Both the position numbers and the translations under genes were made by a program. DNA of 64,000 bases from an uncultured Ilumatobacter sp. (GTDB lineage: Bacteria > Actinomycetota > Acidimicrobiia > Acidimicrobiales > Ilumatobacteraceae), in the NCBI GenBank assembly GCA_905480335.1, contig CAJQPY010000021.1, positions 62,001-126,000 on the forward strand, given 5' to 3'. Below the pieces are notes generated by a model. The model did not search any database. It had not been told where the DNA came from and was given only the letters and a program-made list of their open reading frames with translations. The stretch's first letter is position 1; each line of letters begins with the position of its first letter. Below are positions 30,794-43,523 of this stretch, one piece after another.

Positions 30794-31627
30794 TCAGGCT
30801 TTGATCGACGCGGTGAGCATGTTCAGTCCTGCGCGGACGATCATCGTGTACGTGTCGGCAATCGCCACCTCACGGTGGTCCTTCTGGGCTTCGAGACGAG
30901 CCGGGTCCGTGACCACCGCCATGAACGCCGCCTTGCTCGGAAACTCGTTGAATCGGACCTGGTGCCAGGCCCGTCCGTCACCGATGATCGTACCCTCCAC
31001 TGCGAACCACCCGTTGATCCGCACACCGTGGCGGAGTGCAACCTTGGCCGCCTCACTCTGGTACTGCTCCATGTGCGTCGGCGTCGCGTTCGCAGCATCG
31101 GCGTCGTGGAAACGCAGGACGTGGACCACCACGACCGGACCGTCCTCCGCCGTCGGTGGATACGGCACGTCGGCCCAGTCGACGGGGGTGAAACCCGCAG
31201 GCGCGTCCGGTTGCGGCATCGGCTGCGTGCCCATCACAATCGTCGACTGCATGCCGGCGTCCTTGTGCTTGTGCGACTCCTGGAAGGTCGGAAGGGACTG
31301 CATCTCGGTGAACGACCTGCGGGTCGGATACTTCACGACGGCGACTCGGTCCCACACCGTCTCGTCACCGAGCAGTTGCTGGTCGACGTCACCGAAGAGG
31401 ACCGGAGCTGCGCCGACCGCGGCGAGCGAGTCGAGCGGCGAATACAGATCATCGGCCTCCTCGCCCGTCACGGTCGACTCGCGACCATCCGCGTAGTCAG
31501 CGACCTCGCGGTACTTCATCAGGTTGACCATCCACACGGGGCCGTCGTCGTCGGCCACTGTGGTGGCCAGCTTCAACCCATAGGCCTGGTCGATGGTTCC
31601 GTAGCGGGGCCCGGTCTGCTCGCTCAC
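30794..31627 (-). CDS. Tandem DUF1330-like ferredoxin-fold protein
   Basis: 277 aa with two similar halves. GPVWMVNLMKYREVADYADG near residue 28 and VVVVHVLRFHDADAANATPT near 160 have the strand pattern of DUF1330/dimeric alpha-beta barrel domains. Each half ends with a Phe-x-Glu or Phe-Asn-Glu motif (RRSFTEMQSLP, FNEFPSKAAFMAV). Biochemical function of the family is poorly known; related folds act as monooxygenases or isomerases. The start overlaps the upstream sulfatase-DJ-1 gene by 4 bp (31624-31627), so it belongs to the operon. Not a recognised named enzyme. Confidence 0.72.
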   Translation of the reverse strand: MSEQTGPRYGTIDQAYGLKLATTVADDDGPVWMVNLMKYREVADYADGRESTVTGEEADDLYSPLDSLAAVGAAPVLFGDVDQQLLGDETVWDRVAVVKYPTRRSFTEMQSLPTFQESHKHKDAGMQSTIVMGTQPMPQPDAPAGFTPVDWADVPYPPTAEDGPVVVVHVLRFHDADAANATPTHMEQYQSEAAKVALRHGVRINGWFAVEGTIIGDGRAWHQVRFNEFPSKAAFMAVVTDPARLEAQKDHREVAIADTYTMIVRAGLNMLTASIKA

Positions 31628-34215
31628 GACGGGCTCGCCCCTGCGTCGGCAGCTGCCGCAACGATCTGCATCATCTCACGGGCCACCATCGGCCCGGCGT
31701 TCTGGTTCTGGCCCGTCACGAGATTTCCGTCGACCACCCAGTGATTGGCGAACGGGTCACGGAACTTCGTCTCGCTCTCGAAGAGTGCGCCCTCGCCGCG
31801 CAGCTCGCGTTCGGGGTGGTGCGGTGTCGCGTCGATGCCGAGTTCCTGCACCTGCTTGTCGGTCACCGCCGAGATCTTGCGGCCGGCGACGAGTGGCGAG
31901 CCATCGGCAGTCTTCGCGTTGAGCAGCCCGAGCGGGCCGTGACACACGCCGCCCATCACCAGACCAGCGGCGTTGGCTTCGGTCATCTTCTCGCCGAGCG
32001 GCTCGGAGAAGCCGAAGTCGAATGCCGCGCCCCAGCCGCCCGCAAGGAACACGACGTCGTAGTCGGACATGTCGAGGTCACCGATCGCCAGCGAGTCGGC
32101 GACCTTGCTGCGCAGTTCATCGTCAGCGAGGAAACGGTCGTCGTCCGACGTGCGAATCACGGGCTTGAGTGACTTCGGGTCGACCGCGACCATGCCGCCG
32201 CTCGGGCTGGCGATGTCAACGTCCATCCCCGCGTCAAGGAATGCGTAGTGCGGCACGGTCATCTCACTGGCGAAGACACCCGTCGGCTTCGCGATGTCGA
32301 GCCACGCGACATTGGTCGCGACGACAAGCGCACGCTTGCCCGCGAGGTCGAAGATGGTCGCATCAGGATCGTCCGGGTGCATGCCGAGCTTCTGGACGAG
32401 CGCGCGAGCAGCGCGGGCGGGTGCGGGTGGTGTCTTCGTCATCGGTCCTGCTGTGGGTTGGCGTGACGCGTAGGGCCACGGGTGGTTACGTTCCGGAACG
32501 ACGCGAGCGCGTTCCGCTTTCAAGGCGTCGCGCATCCGGGCGAACACCTCGGCGACGGCCGAGTCGCGTTCGACGTCGTGCCATCGGTTGAGTGCTTCGA
32601 TCAGATCGTGATCGAGGTCGTAGAGCTCCCACTGATCGGGGAGCGGTTCCGAGCGGTACGTGTCGGGGCCGGGGCCACCGCTGGCCGCGAGGTGGCGCAC
32701 GCCGGGCTCGGTCCACGTTGCCGGATCGTCGAACACCCGGACCAGCTTCCAGAGCGTCCCGTCGATGCGATGCACCAGCCCTTCGAAGTTCGACGCGACG
32801 TGTGCGGGGGTGTTGATCCGCAATGGCAGTGGCGGCTTCACCGTCCGCCGGAGCCGACGGGCGACGCCCGAGGCGCCGCTGTCGCCTTCGAGCATGTTGT
32901 CGTTGGTCATGAGGTACACCGGGCGATCGCGGTCGGCGTTCGCCGGTTCGTCGACGACCGACATGAGGCTGTTTCCGGGCAACGGATGGACCTCGGTGAA
33001 GTCCTTCTCCAGCACGCCGGCTGCGGTCGACTCGTCGATCCCGGCCGCCACGAGCAACGTCGGAACGATGTCGACATGTGATGTCGGGGCCCCCTCGACC
33101 ACCGCTCCGGCCGTCGGTGCAGTACCGACACGGGCGATCGAGAACGGCACGCGAGTCGCCTCGTCGTAGAGGTTGAACCACTTCTGGTGCAGACCACCGT
33201 GGGCGCCGAGGAGGTCACCGTGATCGGAGGTCTTCACGATGAGCGCATCGGAGCCCTCGTCCGTGATGGCGCGTCGCACTCGGTCGAGTGGAGCATCGAC
33301 CTCGGCATGCAACCGGTGGTACAGGTCGCGGTACTCCTGTGCCTTCTTGGAGTACGTGCCGGCGACGGCGCGGACCGGTCCGTAGCCGGAGGGGTACGTG
33401 TCGCGGTATGCGATCTGTGCGGCCGGTTTGGTGGCAAGGTCCTCGTGTTGGGTGGGCGCCTCGGGGACGTGCGGTGGGTCGAGCGGTGACGGCTCGAGCG
33501 GGTTTCGGCGGCGCGCCCACGCCGGGAAGAGCACGATGTCGTGTGGGTTGACGAAGCTCGCGACGAGGAGAAACGGACGGAGTGCTTCAGCGTCGCCGGC
33601 GGCGCGACGTTCGTAGCGATCGGTGAGCCAGGCGACCACCCGGTCCGCGATCAGCGGATCCCGGCGAACACCTGCATCACGGAACTTGCCGCCATGCGGT
33701 TCGGGGCCGATCCAGCCGGAAAAGCCGTACGGGTCCAGCCGATCCGCCTGGCGGTACTGCTCGACGCCGTCGGCGAGGACGTTGCCGTCATCGTCGTTCG
33801 CATCGACCCGGTTGCCTTCGGCATCGTGAAGGTCGGCATGGGAAAGGTGCCACTTGCCGTCGTAGTGGGTGTCGTAGCCGGCGGTGCGGAACCAATGGCC
33901 GAGTGTCGGGACTTCACCTTCGGGGAGCCAACGCATTCGCGAGTCATCGGCCATCTTGCCGAGGCCGTCGGTCTGGGTGACGCCGTGGACCTCGGGATAC
34001 TGACCGGTGAAGATCGTCGGCCGGCTCGGCACGCAGGCGAGCGAGCCCGTGTAGTGCCGGCGGAAGTTGACGGCGTTGTCTTCGAACCACGTGGCGCCGG
34101 TGAGCGCCGTCCGCCGCCACGCGGCCACGTCATCGGACTCGTATGGCGGCGCAGCGCGCTCCTCATCGGTCATGATCACGATCACATCAGGGCGCGTTGC
34201 CTGTTCGCCGCTCAT
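31624..34215 (-). CDS. Sulfatase fused to a DJ-1/PfpI domain
   Basis: 863 aa. Residues 1-~585 are an alkaline-phosphatase-fold sulfatase: metal Asp in VIVIMTDEER, formylglycine motif CVPSRPTIFTGQ with Cys61 converted by a formylglycine-generating enzyme (not in this window), KWHLSH, and KTSDHGDLLGAHGG. Residues ~620-863 are a DJ-1/PfpI domain of the Hsp31/YhbO group with VVFLAGGWGAAFDF and the nucleophile Cys758 in GGVCHGPLG. The join is a Pro/Ala-rich stretch containing Met592 (MTKTPPAPAR), so internal initiation could give a free DJ-1 protein. DJ-1 relatives include glyoxalases and hydratases. Both ends overlap neighbours by ATGA. I know of no characterised sulfatase with this partner. Confidence 0.88.
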   Translation of the reverse strand: MSGEQATRPDVIVIMTDEERAAPPYESDDVAAWRRTALTGATWFEDNAVNFRRHYTGSLACVPSRPTIFTGQYPEVHGVTQTDGLGKMADDSRMRWLPEGEVPTLGHWFRTAGYDTHYDGKWHLSHADLHDAEGNRVDANDDDGNVLADGVEQYRQADRLDPYGFSGWIGPEPHGGKFRDAGVRRDPLIADRVVAWLTDRYERRAAGDAEALRPFLLVASFVNPHDIVLFPAWARRRNPLEPSPLDPPHVPEAPTQHEDLATKPAAQIAYRDTYPSGYGPVRAVAGTYSKKAQEYRDLYHRLHAEVDAPLDRVRRAITDEGSDALIVKTSDHGDLLGAHGGLHQKWFNLYDEATRVPFSIARVGTAPTAGAVVEGAPTSHVDIVPTLLVAAGIDESTAAGVLEKDFTEVHPLPGNSLMSVVDEPANADRDRPVYLMTNDNMLEGDSGASGVARRLRRTVKPPLPLRINTPAHVASNFEGLVHRIDGTLWKLVRVFDDPATWTEPGVRHLAASGGPGPDTYRSEPLPDQWELYDLDHDLIEALNRWHDVERDSAVAEVFARMRDALKAERARVVPERNHPWPYASRQPTAGPMTKTPPAPARAARALVQKLGMHPDDPDATIFDLAGKRALVVATNVAWLDIAKPTGVFASEMTVPHYAFLDAGMDVDIASPSGGMVAVDPKSLKPVIRTSDDDRFLADDELRSKVADSLAIGDLDMSDYDVVFLAGGWGAAFDFGFSEPLGEKMTEANAAGLVMGGVCHGPLGLLNAKTADGSPLVAGRKISAVTDKQVQELGIDATPHHPERELRGEGALFESETKFRDPFANHWVVDGNLVTGQNQNAGPMVAREMMQIVAAAADAGASPS

Positions 34216-39413: not shown

Positions 39414-39615
39414 TTAAGATTGAGGAGGCTCGGCGAACGCGTTGCCGGTCGAAGCGCTCGACGAACTCTGGCGGCAACACGAAGTCGGGCCTGCGCACCG
39501 CCGACCGAGGCACATCGACCAGATCGCGCGCGACACCACGCTGCGCGAGGGCGAACTGCACCCTCGTCGCGAACGGACAGATCCAGTGGCCGTAGAGCGC
39601 GACGTCGTTGGTCAC
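39403..39615 (-). pseudogene. Truncated glutathione S-transferase (N-terminal thioredoxin domain only)
   Basis: 70 codons from a GTG whose GTGA overlaps the stop of the full-length GST gene. It begins TNDVALYGHWICPFATRVQF, the beta-alpha-beta start of a GST thioredoxin fold with a Cys-Pro motif, and continues to DFVLPPEFVERFDR. It then diverges into RQRVRRASSILMRL and stops. Family members continue with a Pro-loop and a ~120-residue helical domain, both missing. The break lies at the tetR promoter, so a deletion probably joined this remnant to the tetR operon. A functional micro-protein is unlikely. Confidence 0.65.
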
Positions 39616-40646
39616 GACAGCAGTTGTTGACAACCCGTGCCGGCGAGCAGTTCGTCGACCCGCGTGCGGTTCGTGTCGTCGAGCTCGGCGTACTGCTCGC
39701 GCAACCAGCGCAGGCATTTGCCCTGATACTTGAACGGCGCCTGTCGGAACTCGCGTCCGTCGATCTCGCAGACGACCTCCTCGGCTCCCGCGTCGAGTGC
39801 TGCAGCGTTCGCCACCATGAACGGCGCATAGGCCCGTCCCGCCTCGATGAGCAGCGATCGAACGGTTGGAGCCAGCGCGTCTGCTTCGTGCCAGCCGCCG
39901 TCACCCTCGACGGGCCACCAGGACAGGTCATCGACACGTTCGATCCAGTTGATGGCGCGTGGCGCGTGTTCGACACCGATCGCAGTCGGCGTCGGATCCC
40001 ACCACAACATCGGCTTGAGCTGGCCGTACAGCGCGACGTCGCTGCGACCCGGACGGTCTCCGAGGAGAAACGGCTGCTCGGCGAGGTGCGCCTGCAAGAT
40101 GTCGAGGAGACGGAGATACGACCCTTCGATCGCCGGCTGGTTCGTATCGGTCGACCCGACGAGTGCACGACGGCCGACCTGCCGCTCGATGATCATGTCG
40201 TGAGCCTGTTGGAGCAATGCGGCGGGCGCGTGCAGGTTCCTGTCGATGGGGAGCAACCACCCGGACTTCTCGACGTCGGCGTCGTACGCCCACCGGTAGT
40301 GGTACATCATCTTGGTGACCCACTCGTCGGCGAAGTCCTCAAGGAGGAAGTCGATGAACGCGACGGCCGGATCCGTGGGAACCAAGCTGCGCTCGGGGAA
40401 GTCGGCTTCCAGTCGCGTGATCTGCGGGGACGAATCGGTGAGGGTCTCGAGATAGCCACCGTCATCGCCGGGGAAGATCAACACGGGGATGACCGGCACC
40501 GACCCCTGGGGATAGATGTCCCACTGCGAGTCCTTCAGGACCCAGCGAAACGGGATCCGGCGGTACCGCAACACCGCCCGCATCTTCAAGCTGTAGGGCG
40601 ACGAGAACGCACCCCGAATGATGATCGGCTCAACCTGCTGCGACAT
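39612..40646 (-). CDS. Glutathione S-transferase-like protein
   Basis: 344 aa, longer than ordinary GSTs (~220). N-terminal thioredoxin fold: IIIRGAFSSPYSLKMRAVLR, then IPFRWVLK, SVPVIPVLIFPGDDGGYLET (cis-Pro loop) and TDSSPQI. The helical domain carries FLLGDRPGRSDVALYGQL, the family's N-capping box, and a C-terminal extension of ~90 residues. Actinobacteria use mycothiol rather than glutathione in general, so the thiol used is uncertain. Divergent from the GrdB-family selenoprotein gene, with a TetR-type operator between. Followed by a truncated second GST through a GTGA overlap. May handle electrophilic or halogenated compounds (inference). Confidence 0.82.
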   Translation of the reverse strand: MSQQVEPIIIRGAFSSPYSLKMRAVLRYRRIPFRWVLKDSQWDIYPQGSVPVIPVLIFPGDDGGYLETLTDSSPQITRLEADFPERSLVPTDPAVAFIDFLLEDFADEWVTKMMYHYRWAYDADVEKSGWLLPIDRNLHAPAALLQQAHDMIIERQVGRRALVGSTDTNQPAIEGSYLRLLDILQAHLAEQPFLLGDRPGRSDVALYGQLKPMLWWDPTPTAIGVEHAPRAINWIERVDDLSWWPVEGDGGWHEADALAPTVRSLLIEAGRAYAPFMVANAAALDAGAEEVVCEIDGREFRQAPFKYQGKCLRWLREQYAELDDTNRTRVDELLAGTGCQQLLS

Positions 40647-40723: not shown

Positions 40724-41878
40724 ATGTCGGGCGACGCGACCATGCGGCAATTCGGCGCGACAGCACCCGTGCCCGAGTTCGACGATCCGGCGTTCACGCC
40801 GTTTCCTGTGCCCCTCTCGGAGGCGAAGGTCGCGATCGTCACGTCCGCGGCGTTGCACCGGACGCACGACGACCAGTTCAGTGCTGCGGACGTCAGCTAC
40901 CGAACGATCGACCGCGCCGAACGGGATCTGGTGCTCGGACACTGGAGCCCGAACTTCGATCGCACCGGTTTCCAGCTCGACCTGAACGTCGTGTATCCCA
41001 TCGACCGCCTCGAAGAACTCGAAGCCGACGGCACCATCGGCGCCGTCGCGGAGCACCACTACTCCTTCGCAGGGAACCAGCCGGACACGGTGAGCGAACT
41101 GCGCCTCGACACCGGCCCGGCGTGCGCCGCCGCGATGAAGGCCGACGGTGTCCACGCCGTCCTACTCACCCCCGTTTGACCGCTGTGCACGCGTACCGTG
41201 AGTACGCTCGCCCACGTTTTCGAGGCCGCCGGCCTGTCGACCATCGTGCTCGCGTCGATGAAGGAAGTCGCTGAACGCATCGGCCCACCGCGCACGCTGT
41301 ACTGCGAGTTCCCGCTGGGTCGGCCACTCGGCAAGCCGGGCGACGCCGAGTTCCAGACCGACGTGATCCGCCGCGGGCTCGCCCTACTCGACGCCACCGA
41401 GCCGGTTTTCGAAACCCACCCGACGGTCATCGAGTCCGACGAGACACCGATGTCGTGTGCGATCCCGCCGCGCTTCGATCCCGACCTCCCAGCATCGGTC
41501 GACGAGGCCAAGGGCCTCCGCGCGGCCTACGACCGAGCCGTCGCGAAGCGCGGGACGACGTCGGTCGGGCGCACGATCGGCGCCGACGACGTGCCGACCG
41601 CGCTCGACATCTTGCATCGGTGGGCCGGCGGCGCCGACTGGAAGGAACTCCCGGTGCCAGGTGGCAACTTGCTCGGCGTCTGCCACGACGTGCGCACCTA
41701 CTACGAGGAGGCAGGGCTCGAACTCGTCGAGGGCCCCACTCCCGGCGGGCGAGCCGCTGAAGCGTGGTTCTACGAGACGACCGAAGCCGGCAAGACGGTG
41801 ATGGCAGCGCGGGCTGCGCTGAAGGAAGCCGGGGCACCGTTCCCGCTCTGGTTCTACATGGCGCCCGCCCACCGCTGA
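40724..41878 (+). CDS. GrdB-family (glycine/sarcosine/betaine reductase B-like) selenoprotein, UGA read as Sec
   Basis: One continuous frame interrupted only by TGA at 41177-41179; read through, it gives 384 aa. The first part has VAIVTSAALHRTHDDQFSAA, YPIDRLEELEADGTIGAVAE and GVHAVLLTPV. The UGA follows, and the next residues are PLCTRTVSTLAHVFEAAGLS, so the site reads T-P-V-U-P-L-C, a Sec-x-x-C redox motif where GrdB-type proteins carry selenocysteine. Both halves are parts of one family and the second has no ribosome site at its apparent GTG (41198). A GrdB-like protein uses Sec to attack a substrate carbon. No GrdA, GrdC or other Stickland partner is nearby, so the reaction is unknown. 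The alternative is a pseudogene with a stop. Confidence 0.8.
41177..41207 (+). promoter_or_regulatory. In-frame UGA with bacterial SECIS-like hairpin
   Basis: The TGA is followed after 11 nt by GCGTAC-CGTGA-GTACGC (41191-41207): a perfect 6-bp stem with a 5-nt loop carrying GU at its second and third positions, 18 nt past the UGA. Position and a guanine near the loop start agree with known bacterial SECIS elements, which lie immediately downstream of the Sec codon and bind SelB. Confidence 0.65.
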
Positions 41879-41915: not shown

Positions 41916-43523
41916 ATGCAGAAGTGGCGTCCGCTCATCGTCTTGTCACTGGCACAGTTCTTGATGGTGCTGGATCAGGCCGTGATGAACGTCGCGATCA
42001 GCCAACTCGTGGAGGATTTCGACACCACGGTGACGACGATCCAAGGGGTCATCACGCTGTACGCGCTGGTCATGGCGACGCTGATGATCACCGGCGGCAA
42101 GATCGGCGACATCATCGGCCGACGACGCGCGTTCGTCATCGGTCTCGTTATCTACGGTGCCGGCTCTGCGCTGACCGCGGCGTCGTGGAGCGTCCCCTCG
42201 CTGATCTTCGGATGGTCGATTCTCGAGGGCATCGGCGCCGCGTTGGTTCTCCCCGCCCTCGTCGCCCTCCTGGCCGCGAATTATCAGGGCCGTGATCGGA
42301 TCACGGCATTCGGTGTGCTCGGCGGTGTTGCCGGCGTCGGAATCGCAGCGGGCCCGATCGTCGGCGGCTTCTTCACCACGAACCTGTCCTGGCGGTGGGT
42401 CTTCGTCGGCGAGGTGCTCATCGCCTGCATCATCGTGCTCGCCGCCCGCCTGATCGTCGACGCCAAGCTCGCGGGCCGTCGTCCGAACCTCGACATCGTC
42501 GGCTCGGTGCTCTCCGCGATCGGGCTCGGGCTGATCGTGTTCGCGATGCTCCAGGCGAGCAGCTGGGGCTGGCTCGCACCGAAGCAGTCGCCCATCGAAC
42601 CGTTCGGTTTCGCGCTCACCCCGTTCGTGATCCTCGCCGGCGGCATCGTGCTCTGGGTGTTCGTCCGTTGGCAGGGACACCGCGTCCGGGAGGGTCTCGA
42701 CCCGCTCGTTCGACTCGAACTCCTCAAGGTACCGCCGCTGCGCTCGGGGCTCGGCTGCTTCCTCAGTCAGAACCTGATCCTGCTCGGGATCTTCTTCATC
42801 CTTCCGCTGTACCTCCAGATCGTGCTCGGCTTCGACGCACTCGAGACCGGCATCAAGATGCTGCCGATCTCGATCGCGATATTCATCACCTCGTCGAGCG
42901 GACCCCTGCTTGCGGGGAGGTTCGGTCCGAAGCGCGTTGTTCAGACCGGTTTTTCGCTGTTGATCCTCGCCGCGTTCTGGATGCTGCAGGCGATCAAACC
43001 CGAGCTCGACGGGATCGGGTTCGCCGTCACCCTCGCGGTTCTCGGGATCGCGATGGGACTGATCGCCTCGCAGCTTGGCAGCGTGATCCAGTCGTCGGTC
43101 GGCCCGGCCGACCGTGGCGAAGCGGGTGGACTGCAGTACACCGCCCAGCAGCTGGGCTCGGCGATCGGCACCGCCCTGATCGGTGCCGTGGTGATCAGCT
43201 CGTTGGTGGCTGCATTCGTGTCGAACATCTCGGAGCAGCCGAGCATCCCGGCCGAACTCACGGATGCAATCGAAATCGAGGTCGCCGCAGGTGCCAGCTT
43301 CGTTGCGGCCGATGCCGTCGAGGTGTCGCTCATCGACGCCGGGGTCGAAGACGACGACACCGACGCCGTCGTCGCCGAGTACCGCGACGCGCAACTCAAC
43401 GCATTGAAGACCGGGCTGCTGCTCGCCGCCATCCTGTCGGTCGTCTCGCTCGCCTTCACCCGCAACCTGCCGGGGCGCGACGAAGCCGACGCCGCCGCCG
43501 AACGAGAACCCGCTGCGACGTGA
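41916..43523 (+). CDS. MFS multidrug exporter, DHA2 (EmrB/QacA) type
   Basis: 535 aa, about 14 membrane helices. MQKWRPLIVLSLAQFLMVLD with the Asp in helix 1 and the motif DQAVMNVAI is typical of DHA2; motif A is GGKIGDIIGRRRAF and motif C lies in GVLGGVAGVGIAAGPIVGG. A periplasmic or loop segment rich in Glu/Asp lies before the last helix. It should export hydrophobic compounds with proton antiport across the inner membrane. Starts 37 bp after the selenoprotein gene on the same strand, so it may export the product or substrate handled there (inference). Confidence 0.92.
   Translation: MQKWRPLIVLSLAQFLMVLDQAVMNVAISQLVEDFDTTVTTIQGVITLYALVMATLMITGGKIGDIIGRRRAFVIGLVIYGAGSALTAASWSVPSLIFGWSILEGIGAALVLPALVALLAANYQGRDRITAFGVLGGVAGVGIAAGPIVGGFFTTNLSWRWVFVGEVLIACIIVLAARLIVDAKLAGRRPNLDIVGSVLSAIGLGLIVFAMLQASSWGWLAPKQSPIEPFGFALTPFVILAGGIVLWVFVRWQGHRVREGLDPLVRLELLKVPPLRSGLGCFLSQNLILLGIFFILPLYLQIVLGFDALETGIKMLPISIAIFITSSSGPLLAGRFGPKRVVQTGFSLLILAAFWMLQAIKPELDGIGFAVTLAVLGIAMGLIASQLGSVIQSSVGPADRGEAGGLQYTAQQLGSAIGTALIGAVVISSLVAAFVSNISEQPSIPAELTDAIEIEVAAGASFVAADAVEVSLIDAGVEDDDTDAVVAEYRDAQLNALKTGLLLAAILSVVSLAFTRNLPGRDEADAAAEREPAAT

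Follow-up and report, generated by a model that had tools for sequence, protein, structure and literature searches.

A predicted PrdB-like selenoprotein with a C-terminal helical extension, encoded across an in-frame UGA in an uncultured Ilumatobacter

Introduction

Are two open reading frames that lie in one frame, parted by a single TGA, a damaged gene, two genes, or one gene whose UGA is translated as selenocysteine (Sec)? And in the last case, what would the product do? The question is raised by positions 40724–41878 of the window, by which we mean the whole 64,000-nucleotide stretch of DNA analyzed here. The initial annotation read this locus as a hidden selenoprotein gene of the GrdB family, a lone copy in an aerobic actinobacterium, with an undescribed Sec-dependent reaction, perhaps on an electrophilic or halogenated compound. 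Selenoproteins are already known in Actinobacteria (available text of PMC1794560), and a 2026 review describes them as rarely retained by aerobic bacteria (available text of PMC13188914).

Results

The reading frame and its UGA

The two ORFs (40721/40724–41179 and 41198–41878) share one frame with the TGA at 41177–41179 between them, just as first annotated. Reading this TGA as a residue turns 40724–41878 of the forward strand into a single protein of 384 residues, with Sec as residue 152. The surrounding motif is LLTPV-U-PLCTRT, in which UPLC represents residues 152–155. The start codon used here is ATG 40724, and GTG 40721 is a further candidate. The parts of the gene are:

40724..41176, forward strand: N-terminal part, residues 1–151, first part of the GrdB/PrdB-like core (PF07355, 43.8 bits on this part alone; cut-off 22)
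41177..41179, forward strand: in-frame UGA, putative Sec codon, residue 152
41180..41425, forward strand: remainder of the core domain, residues 153–234, with Cys155 and an LGRPLG motif
41191..41207, forward strand: predicted SECIS-type hairpin, with covariation among relatives
41426..41878, forward strand: C-terminal helical extension, residues 235–384, followed by the final stop TGA

The TGA is conserved. A contig scan gave 339 relatives, and in the best 80 of them, all long forms like the window protein, the TGA is present in 80 of 80. Most of these 80 records bear the title Acidimicrobiia, Acidimicrobiales or Actinomycetota; five are titled Chloroflexi, Chloroflexota or Dehalococcoidia, and one Acidobacteria. 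Family matches were found in 23 of 60 genomes (own included), where 43 of 45 matches carry one TGA and the Sec column lies outside the other two; among relatives from the genome set, 30 loci were read and 29 of them have TGA at the motif. A phylum sample, in which at most four candidates were scored per genome and paralogues may be missed, gave matches in 73 of 396 genomes; among the 86 matches listed, 79 have at least one TGA, six have no stop and one has a TAG only. Some short-form matches (G111, G169, G138 and G425) contain two in-frame TGAs, the second of which may be Sec or a stop.

Two of the six stop-free matches were read, and they present Cys in the motif: a long form with TPACPMC (L135), which is the one Cys form among 10 long forms of the phylum sample, and a short form with PFCPQC (L148). 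Sec falls on the family column to which the initial annotation had assigned it, with relatives holding Sec there and rarely Cys. A tRNA-Sec over the cut-off was found in five of five genomes tested, out of the six with stop-free matches. Since Cys forms occur in tRNA-Sec-bearing genomes, Sec is therefore not strictly indispensable.

Comparison with five orthologues gave dN of 0.12–0.26 versus dS of 0.71–1.12 on both sides of the UGA; by these rates purifying selection acts on both halves. A tRNA-Sec over the cut-off is also more frequent in genomes that have a family match than in those without (21 of 23 versus 23 of 37; Fisher p 0.016), where two of the 23, G043 and G055, have GrdB-type matches only. 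In G005 and G036, which are 69% and 84% complete, the gene is present with no tRNA-Sec over the cut-off.

The hairpin behind the UGA

The hairpin noted in the initial annotation was recovered, beginning 11 nt after the UGA, with a 6-bp stem and a 5-nt loop, CGUGA (GCGTAC-CGTGA-GTACGC, 41191–41207). Counting both strands, the window has 1,865 TGA triplets, and 8 of them are followed by this exact geometry, GU pairs allowed. An open frame of 100 codons or more flanks 44 of the TGAs on either side, and of these 44 only 41177 has such a hairpin. Taken singly, the sequence folds with an energy that is not exceptional (z = -0.22). Rfam gave no SECIS match, and may hold no model for bacterial SECIS.

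All six pairs are kept in 78 of the 80 long forms (best 80 of 339 relatives). At the fourth pair, 36 have U-A, 43 have C-G and one has no pair; the switch mostly combines a synonymous change in a 5'-side Arg codon with Thr to Val or Ala on the 3' side. For a broader alignment, 58 of 94 distinct segments were hand-chosen for variety, short forms included, identical segments having been dropped beforehand; one of the 94 (L100) is an obvious chance match. In these 58 relatives, 93.7% of the cells are paired versus 70.4% after shuffling, and the covariation score is 0.585 versus 0.185 for shuffles (sd 0.021), with none of 500 shuffles as high. Slid versions score at most 0.152. Two of five covariation measures were no better than shuffles in the same 58 relatives, namely both-side pair changes (72 of 500) and further pair types (371 of 500), and the shuffles are a lenient control because the sequences are related. 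RNAalifold, unaided, predicts the same helix. The SECIS assignment is thus one from conservation and covariation, not from folding energy.

The host and its selenocysteine machinery

The host genome (2.95 Mb in 51 contigs, 94% complete) holds every component that the initial annotation had named as its check. Its tRNA-Sec scores 66.5 bits, above the cut-off, and is also called by ARAGORN. The selA and selB genes (398.8 and 275.4 bits, both over cut-off) are adjacent on contig C6, and selD reaches 365.7 bits, also over its cut-off. The selD gene (L159, G000:C31:56738-57658) has an in-frame UGA of its own, GAG-U-GCK, behind which a GC-rich hairpin seems possible by eye. Matches to haem-copper oxidases fall in three stretches, apparently two genes. 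These oxidases fit a lifestyle that seems aerobic, in line with what had been proposed for this host.

Under the standard code the locus presents two ORFs, which speaks for a stop mutation that left a pseudogene, or for two separate genes. Both readings were dropped as extremely improbable: the UGA is conserved in 80 of 80 long forms (best 80 of 339), the hairpin behind it covaries, purifying selection is seen on either side, and the host has full Sec machinery. By sequence, then, 40724–41878 is a conserved selenoprotein gene and no pseudogene, and UGA 41177 is almost certainly a Sec codon inside one gene despite the two apparent ORFs. Evidence of this comparative kind for Sec incorporation is strong. 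The locus is an example of the standard code splitting a selenoprotein gene into two ORFs.

Relationship to PrdB and GrdB

The assignment to the GrdB family calls for a correction. The window protein passes the cut-off of the Pfam GRDB family, PF07355, which comprises GrdB, GrdF and GrdH, the selenoprotein B of glycine, sarcosine and betaine reductase (40 bits; cut-off 22), but the PrdB model TIGR04483 is nearer, at 139.9 bits compared with 54.7 bits for the GrdB model TIGR01917. Neither reaches its cut-off (300 and 602.2 bits, respectively), and TIGR01918 narrowly misses its own (63.5 versus 65.45 bits). These scores place the protein closer to PrdB, of D-proline reductase, than to GrdB, though under the PrdB cut-off; what it resembles is a subunit of a reductase for amino acids that works anaerobically.

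The likeness to PrdB lies in the core, which is homologous (TIGR04483 aligns over residues 16–224), with the Sec/Cys column and the UxxC motif common to both. Identity to three plasmid-borne PrdB proteins is 32–34%, and the C-terminal extension of about 150 residues is found in the window protein and is absent from these three. The models named PrdB and GrdB likewise lack this helical extension. GrdB shares Sec at the corresponding place, as seen in the GrdB-type protein of G043, but the window protein matches the C-terminal half only of the GrdB models. Moreover, GrdB has a UxxCxxC motif (available text of PMC13188914), while the window protein has UPLCTRT instead.

A tree of 56 hand-picked rows, unrooted and with some long branches (L040, L148), groups 25 long forms in one clade (support 100/98). 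A well supported branch (97/93) sets 52 long and short forms, the window protein among them, apart from one GrdB-type row and the three plasmid-borne PrdB, which come from Bacillota. Two long forms of 65% identity, L070 and L090, are from MAG records titled Bifidobacterium breve and Ferrithrix thermotolerans, titles that may be wrong.

The pyruvoyl partner

The PrdA/GrdE-type pyruvoyl gene (PF09338), whose product is the usual partner of PrdB, gave no match in the window protein's own genome, which is 94% complete. Across the 60 genomes it is absent in 58, own included, and present in G043 and G055; the same search gave no match in 14 control genomes. GrdA (PF04723) had no match in the host genome, nor in any control genome, which leaves that search uninformative. 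We extended the PF09338 search to 58 genomes in which the family occurs (G043, G055 and 56 of the 73 phylum-sample genomes that gave a match; five more of the 73 were covered in the 60-genome search), and 11 were positive. In 10 of these 11 the only family match is a weak one of GrdB type (E 6e-6 to 4e-16), and in nine PF09338 lies on one contig with a GrdB-type match, at most 1 kb away. The other 47 genomes, with best PrdB-like matches at E <= 5e-26, have no PF09338. The exception among the positives is G339, in which PrdB-like matches (best 6.6e-32) and PF09338 are on different contigs. By gene content, PF09338 goes with GrdB-type genes and not with PrdB-like ones in most genomes tested.

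Among annotated PrdB records, two of three (Terrisporobacter and Enterococcus) have prdA in the prdB cluster; the third, a Peptoclostridium stretch, lists no prdA in a gene table that is incomplete. GrdB-type matches adjoining PF09338 genes of GrdE type were seen in Actinomycetota at L130 (G043) and in G353, G379, G148, G156, G159, G179, G219 and G241. The L130 protein is from the window's own order and has the motif TUGTGTRCG.

A second, short PrdB-like gene

The copy in the window is not alone, contrary to the initial annotation. A short UGA-containing PrdB-like paralogue lies at G000:C3:203856-204473 (region L157, G000:C3:202300-206000), its start codon being a candidate only. It is directly downstream of a gene of the proline racemase family (PF05544, 381.2 bits), for which the best model is trans-3-hydroxy-L-proline dehydratase (506.7 bits; cut-off 550). 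A ferredoxin-like gene precedes the short paralogue both here and in G009, and the G009 copy gave Fer4 families on scan.

Could the window protein then be a true subunit of a D-proline-type or other amino-acid reductase, with a pyruvoyl partner that is dispensable or has diverged beyond recognition? PrdB is its closest named family, the short paralogue adjoins the hydroxyproline-dehydratase-like gene with the ferredoxin-like gene ahead of it, and a proline racemase family gene lies within the Enterococcus prd cluster. We nevertheless regard this as unlikely, as TIGR04483 gives 139.9 of the 300 bits, PF09338 is absent in 58 of 60 genomes, and the proline-racemase-family neighbor belongs to the short paralogue, not to the long form. 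A tblastn search of the collected loci, many with short flanks, found a proline-racemase neighbor only at the host's own paralogue and in Enterococcus, and on these loci it was rejected as a general partner. A reductase that acts without a pyruvoyl subunit remains the preferred reading.

Structure and invariant residues

The AlphaFold model of the full-length protein has a pLDDT of 90.7, and that of the core 86.3. It presents an alpha/beta core, with Sec just ahead of a helix at residues 153–168, followed by the helical extension. A structure search of the PDB with both models gave no match at E <= 0.001, and the fold therefore provides no functional clue. Sequence searches of the PDB returned weak unrelated matches only (best E 0.28 and 0.043), and Pfam gave nothing at E up to 10 for residues 235–384 of three members.

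Residues H73, S75, N77, D79, C245, D322, R324 and Y327 are invariant in two alignments (21 of 21 and 51 of 51), the larger comprising the window protein and 50 of the 80 loci (best 80 of 339). Within the extension, none of C245, D322, R324, Y326 and Y327 varies among the 51 aligned long forms. So many fixed positions beyond the motif suggest a pocket for a specific substrate. They weigh against a general antioxidant selenoprotein, reducing thiol-disulfides or peroxides, in which UxxC would be used as in thioredoxin. The UxxC motif itself would suit such a role, and PrdB appears with UxxC in the available texts of PMC2398784 and PMC1088965, the latter placing it among thiol-dependent redox selenoproteins. 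On balance we find the antioxidant role quite improbable, and favor a reductase with a dedicated small substrate.

Genomic neighbors

The neighbors with named features in the window are:

31624-34215, reverse strand: sulfatase with a fused C-terminal DJ-1/PfpI domain, 863 residues
34655-35584, reverse strand: haloalkane dehalogenase (NF002043, 466.8 bits; cut-off 265)
39612..40646, reverse strand: glutathione S-transferase (GST)-like protein, divergent neighbor
41916..43523, forward strand: MFS transporter (EmrB/DHA2-like), downstream neighbor

The dehalogenase gene is about 5 kb from the selenoprotein gene and adjoins a ribonuclease-Z-like hydrolase and sulfatases; the hydrolase and the two sulfatases of the window, like the dehalogenase, lie farther from the selenoprotein gene than the GST-like and transporter genes do. 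We searched for relatives of nine window neighbors near the 80 long forms (best 80 of 339), with flanks of about 6 kb per side on average, and none was near more than nine of the 80. The counts were eight for the GST, five for the dehalogenase, seven and nine for the sulfatases, seven for the ribonuclease-Z-like hydrolase, one each for TauD and the MFS transporter, and zero for the SDR and PPOX genes. The transporter is probably outside the system. The relatives counted at nine of the 80 are those of the sulfatase-DJ-1/PfpI fusion, and the one at L082 has both domains.

This setting bears on the proposal of a halogenated or electrophilic substrate. The window does hold a GST-like protein, an EmrB-like MFS transporter, a haloalkane dehalogenase and two sulfatases, and at least one of the dehalogenase, ribonuclease-Z-like, two sulfatase and GST families is near 21 of the 80 long forms (best 80 of 339). 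However, no searched neighbor passes nine of 80, SDR and PPOX are at none, and the neighbor families may be common in these genomes. With dehalogenase relatives near five and GST relatives near eight of the 80, the proposal is not sustained; no finding points specifically to halogenated compounds, and we rate as rather unlikely an enzyme that uses Sec on xenobiotics, halogenated or otherwise electrophilic. A simple gene caller, run on 81 loci (the 80 and the window) in search of an operon partner, gave no neighbor family at more than 18 of them, and by this clustering no operon is conserved. A cluster of DUF2855 was at 11 of 81 loci, and another, presumably AMP-dependent ligases, at 18 of 81. 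Such recurrence gives no more than a hint at catabolism, and family background rates may be high.

Discussion

Our reading of the locus, to which we give a probability of roughly 60%, is that 40724–41878 encodes one UGA-decoded selenoprotein of 384 residues that would carry out a pyruvoyl-independent Sec/Cys reduction of a small substrate. By analogy, a reductase using its UxxC pair on such a substrate is the most likely function. The ribosome would read UGA 41177 as Sec by means of SelA, SelB, SelD, tRNA-Sec and the short hairpin. The Sec of PrdB and GrdB is thought to attack an electrophilic atom of a small substrate, and the selenolate here may do likewise. Cys155 might then resolve the selenium intermediate, and a cellular thiol or ferredoxin system could re-reduce the Sec/Cys pair. 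Unlike PrdB and GrdB, the protein would work with no pyruvoyl subunit, which makes a plain amino acid in imine-activated form an improbable substrate; the C-terminal extension may supply the binding site. The undescribed Sec-dependent reaction put forward in the initial annotation is still plausible because the pyruvoyl partner is missing, while its halogenated or electrophilic substrate lacks support.

More tentatively, the long forms may represent a separate family of pyruvoyl-independent selenoenzymes, in which PrdB/GrdB chemistry without the partner is fused to a new C-terminal domain, in aerobic Acidimicrobiia, Chloroflexota and other bacteria. The available texts of two ocean surveys describe similar proteins, with 42 Sec-containing PrdB genes in the Sargasso Sea (PMC1088965) and 235 Sec and 110 Cys forms of PrdB in GOS (PMC2398784). 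They place PrdB among the most abundant selenoprotein families, listed as proline reductase. These proteins, likened here by their description only, share UxxC with the window protein, and Sec in bacteria of the surface ocean; the word PrdA is absent from the main text of the GOS paper. Counts of Sec-containing PrdB from ocean metagenomes go back to 2005, so the kind is known and the solitary long form would be a new version of it; a literature search of mainly open-access papers gave no description of a solitary PrdB-like selenoprotein with the extension. If the separate family is real, many of the oceanic PrdB might be members of it, misnamed as proline reductases. And if many of them are solitary, lacking the pyruvoyl partner as in the Actinomycetota genomes tested here, no known reaction can be given to a selenoprotein that is common in surface waters.

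Cultured carriers, one of which we take to be Ilumatobacter coccineus, would make the question of the reaction testable. PrdB-like matches were also seen in 24 plasmid records, including one each of Roseomonas and Haematobacter.
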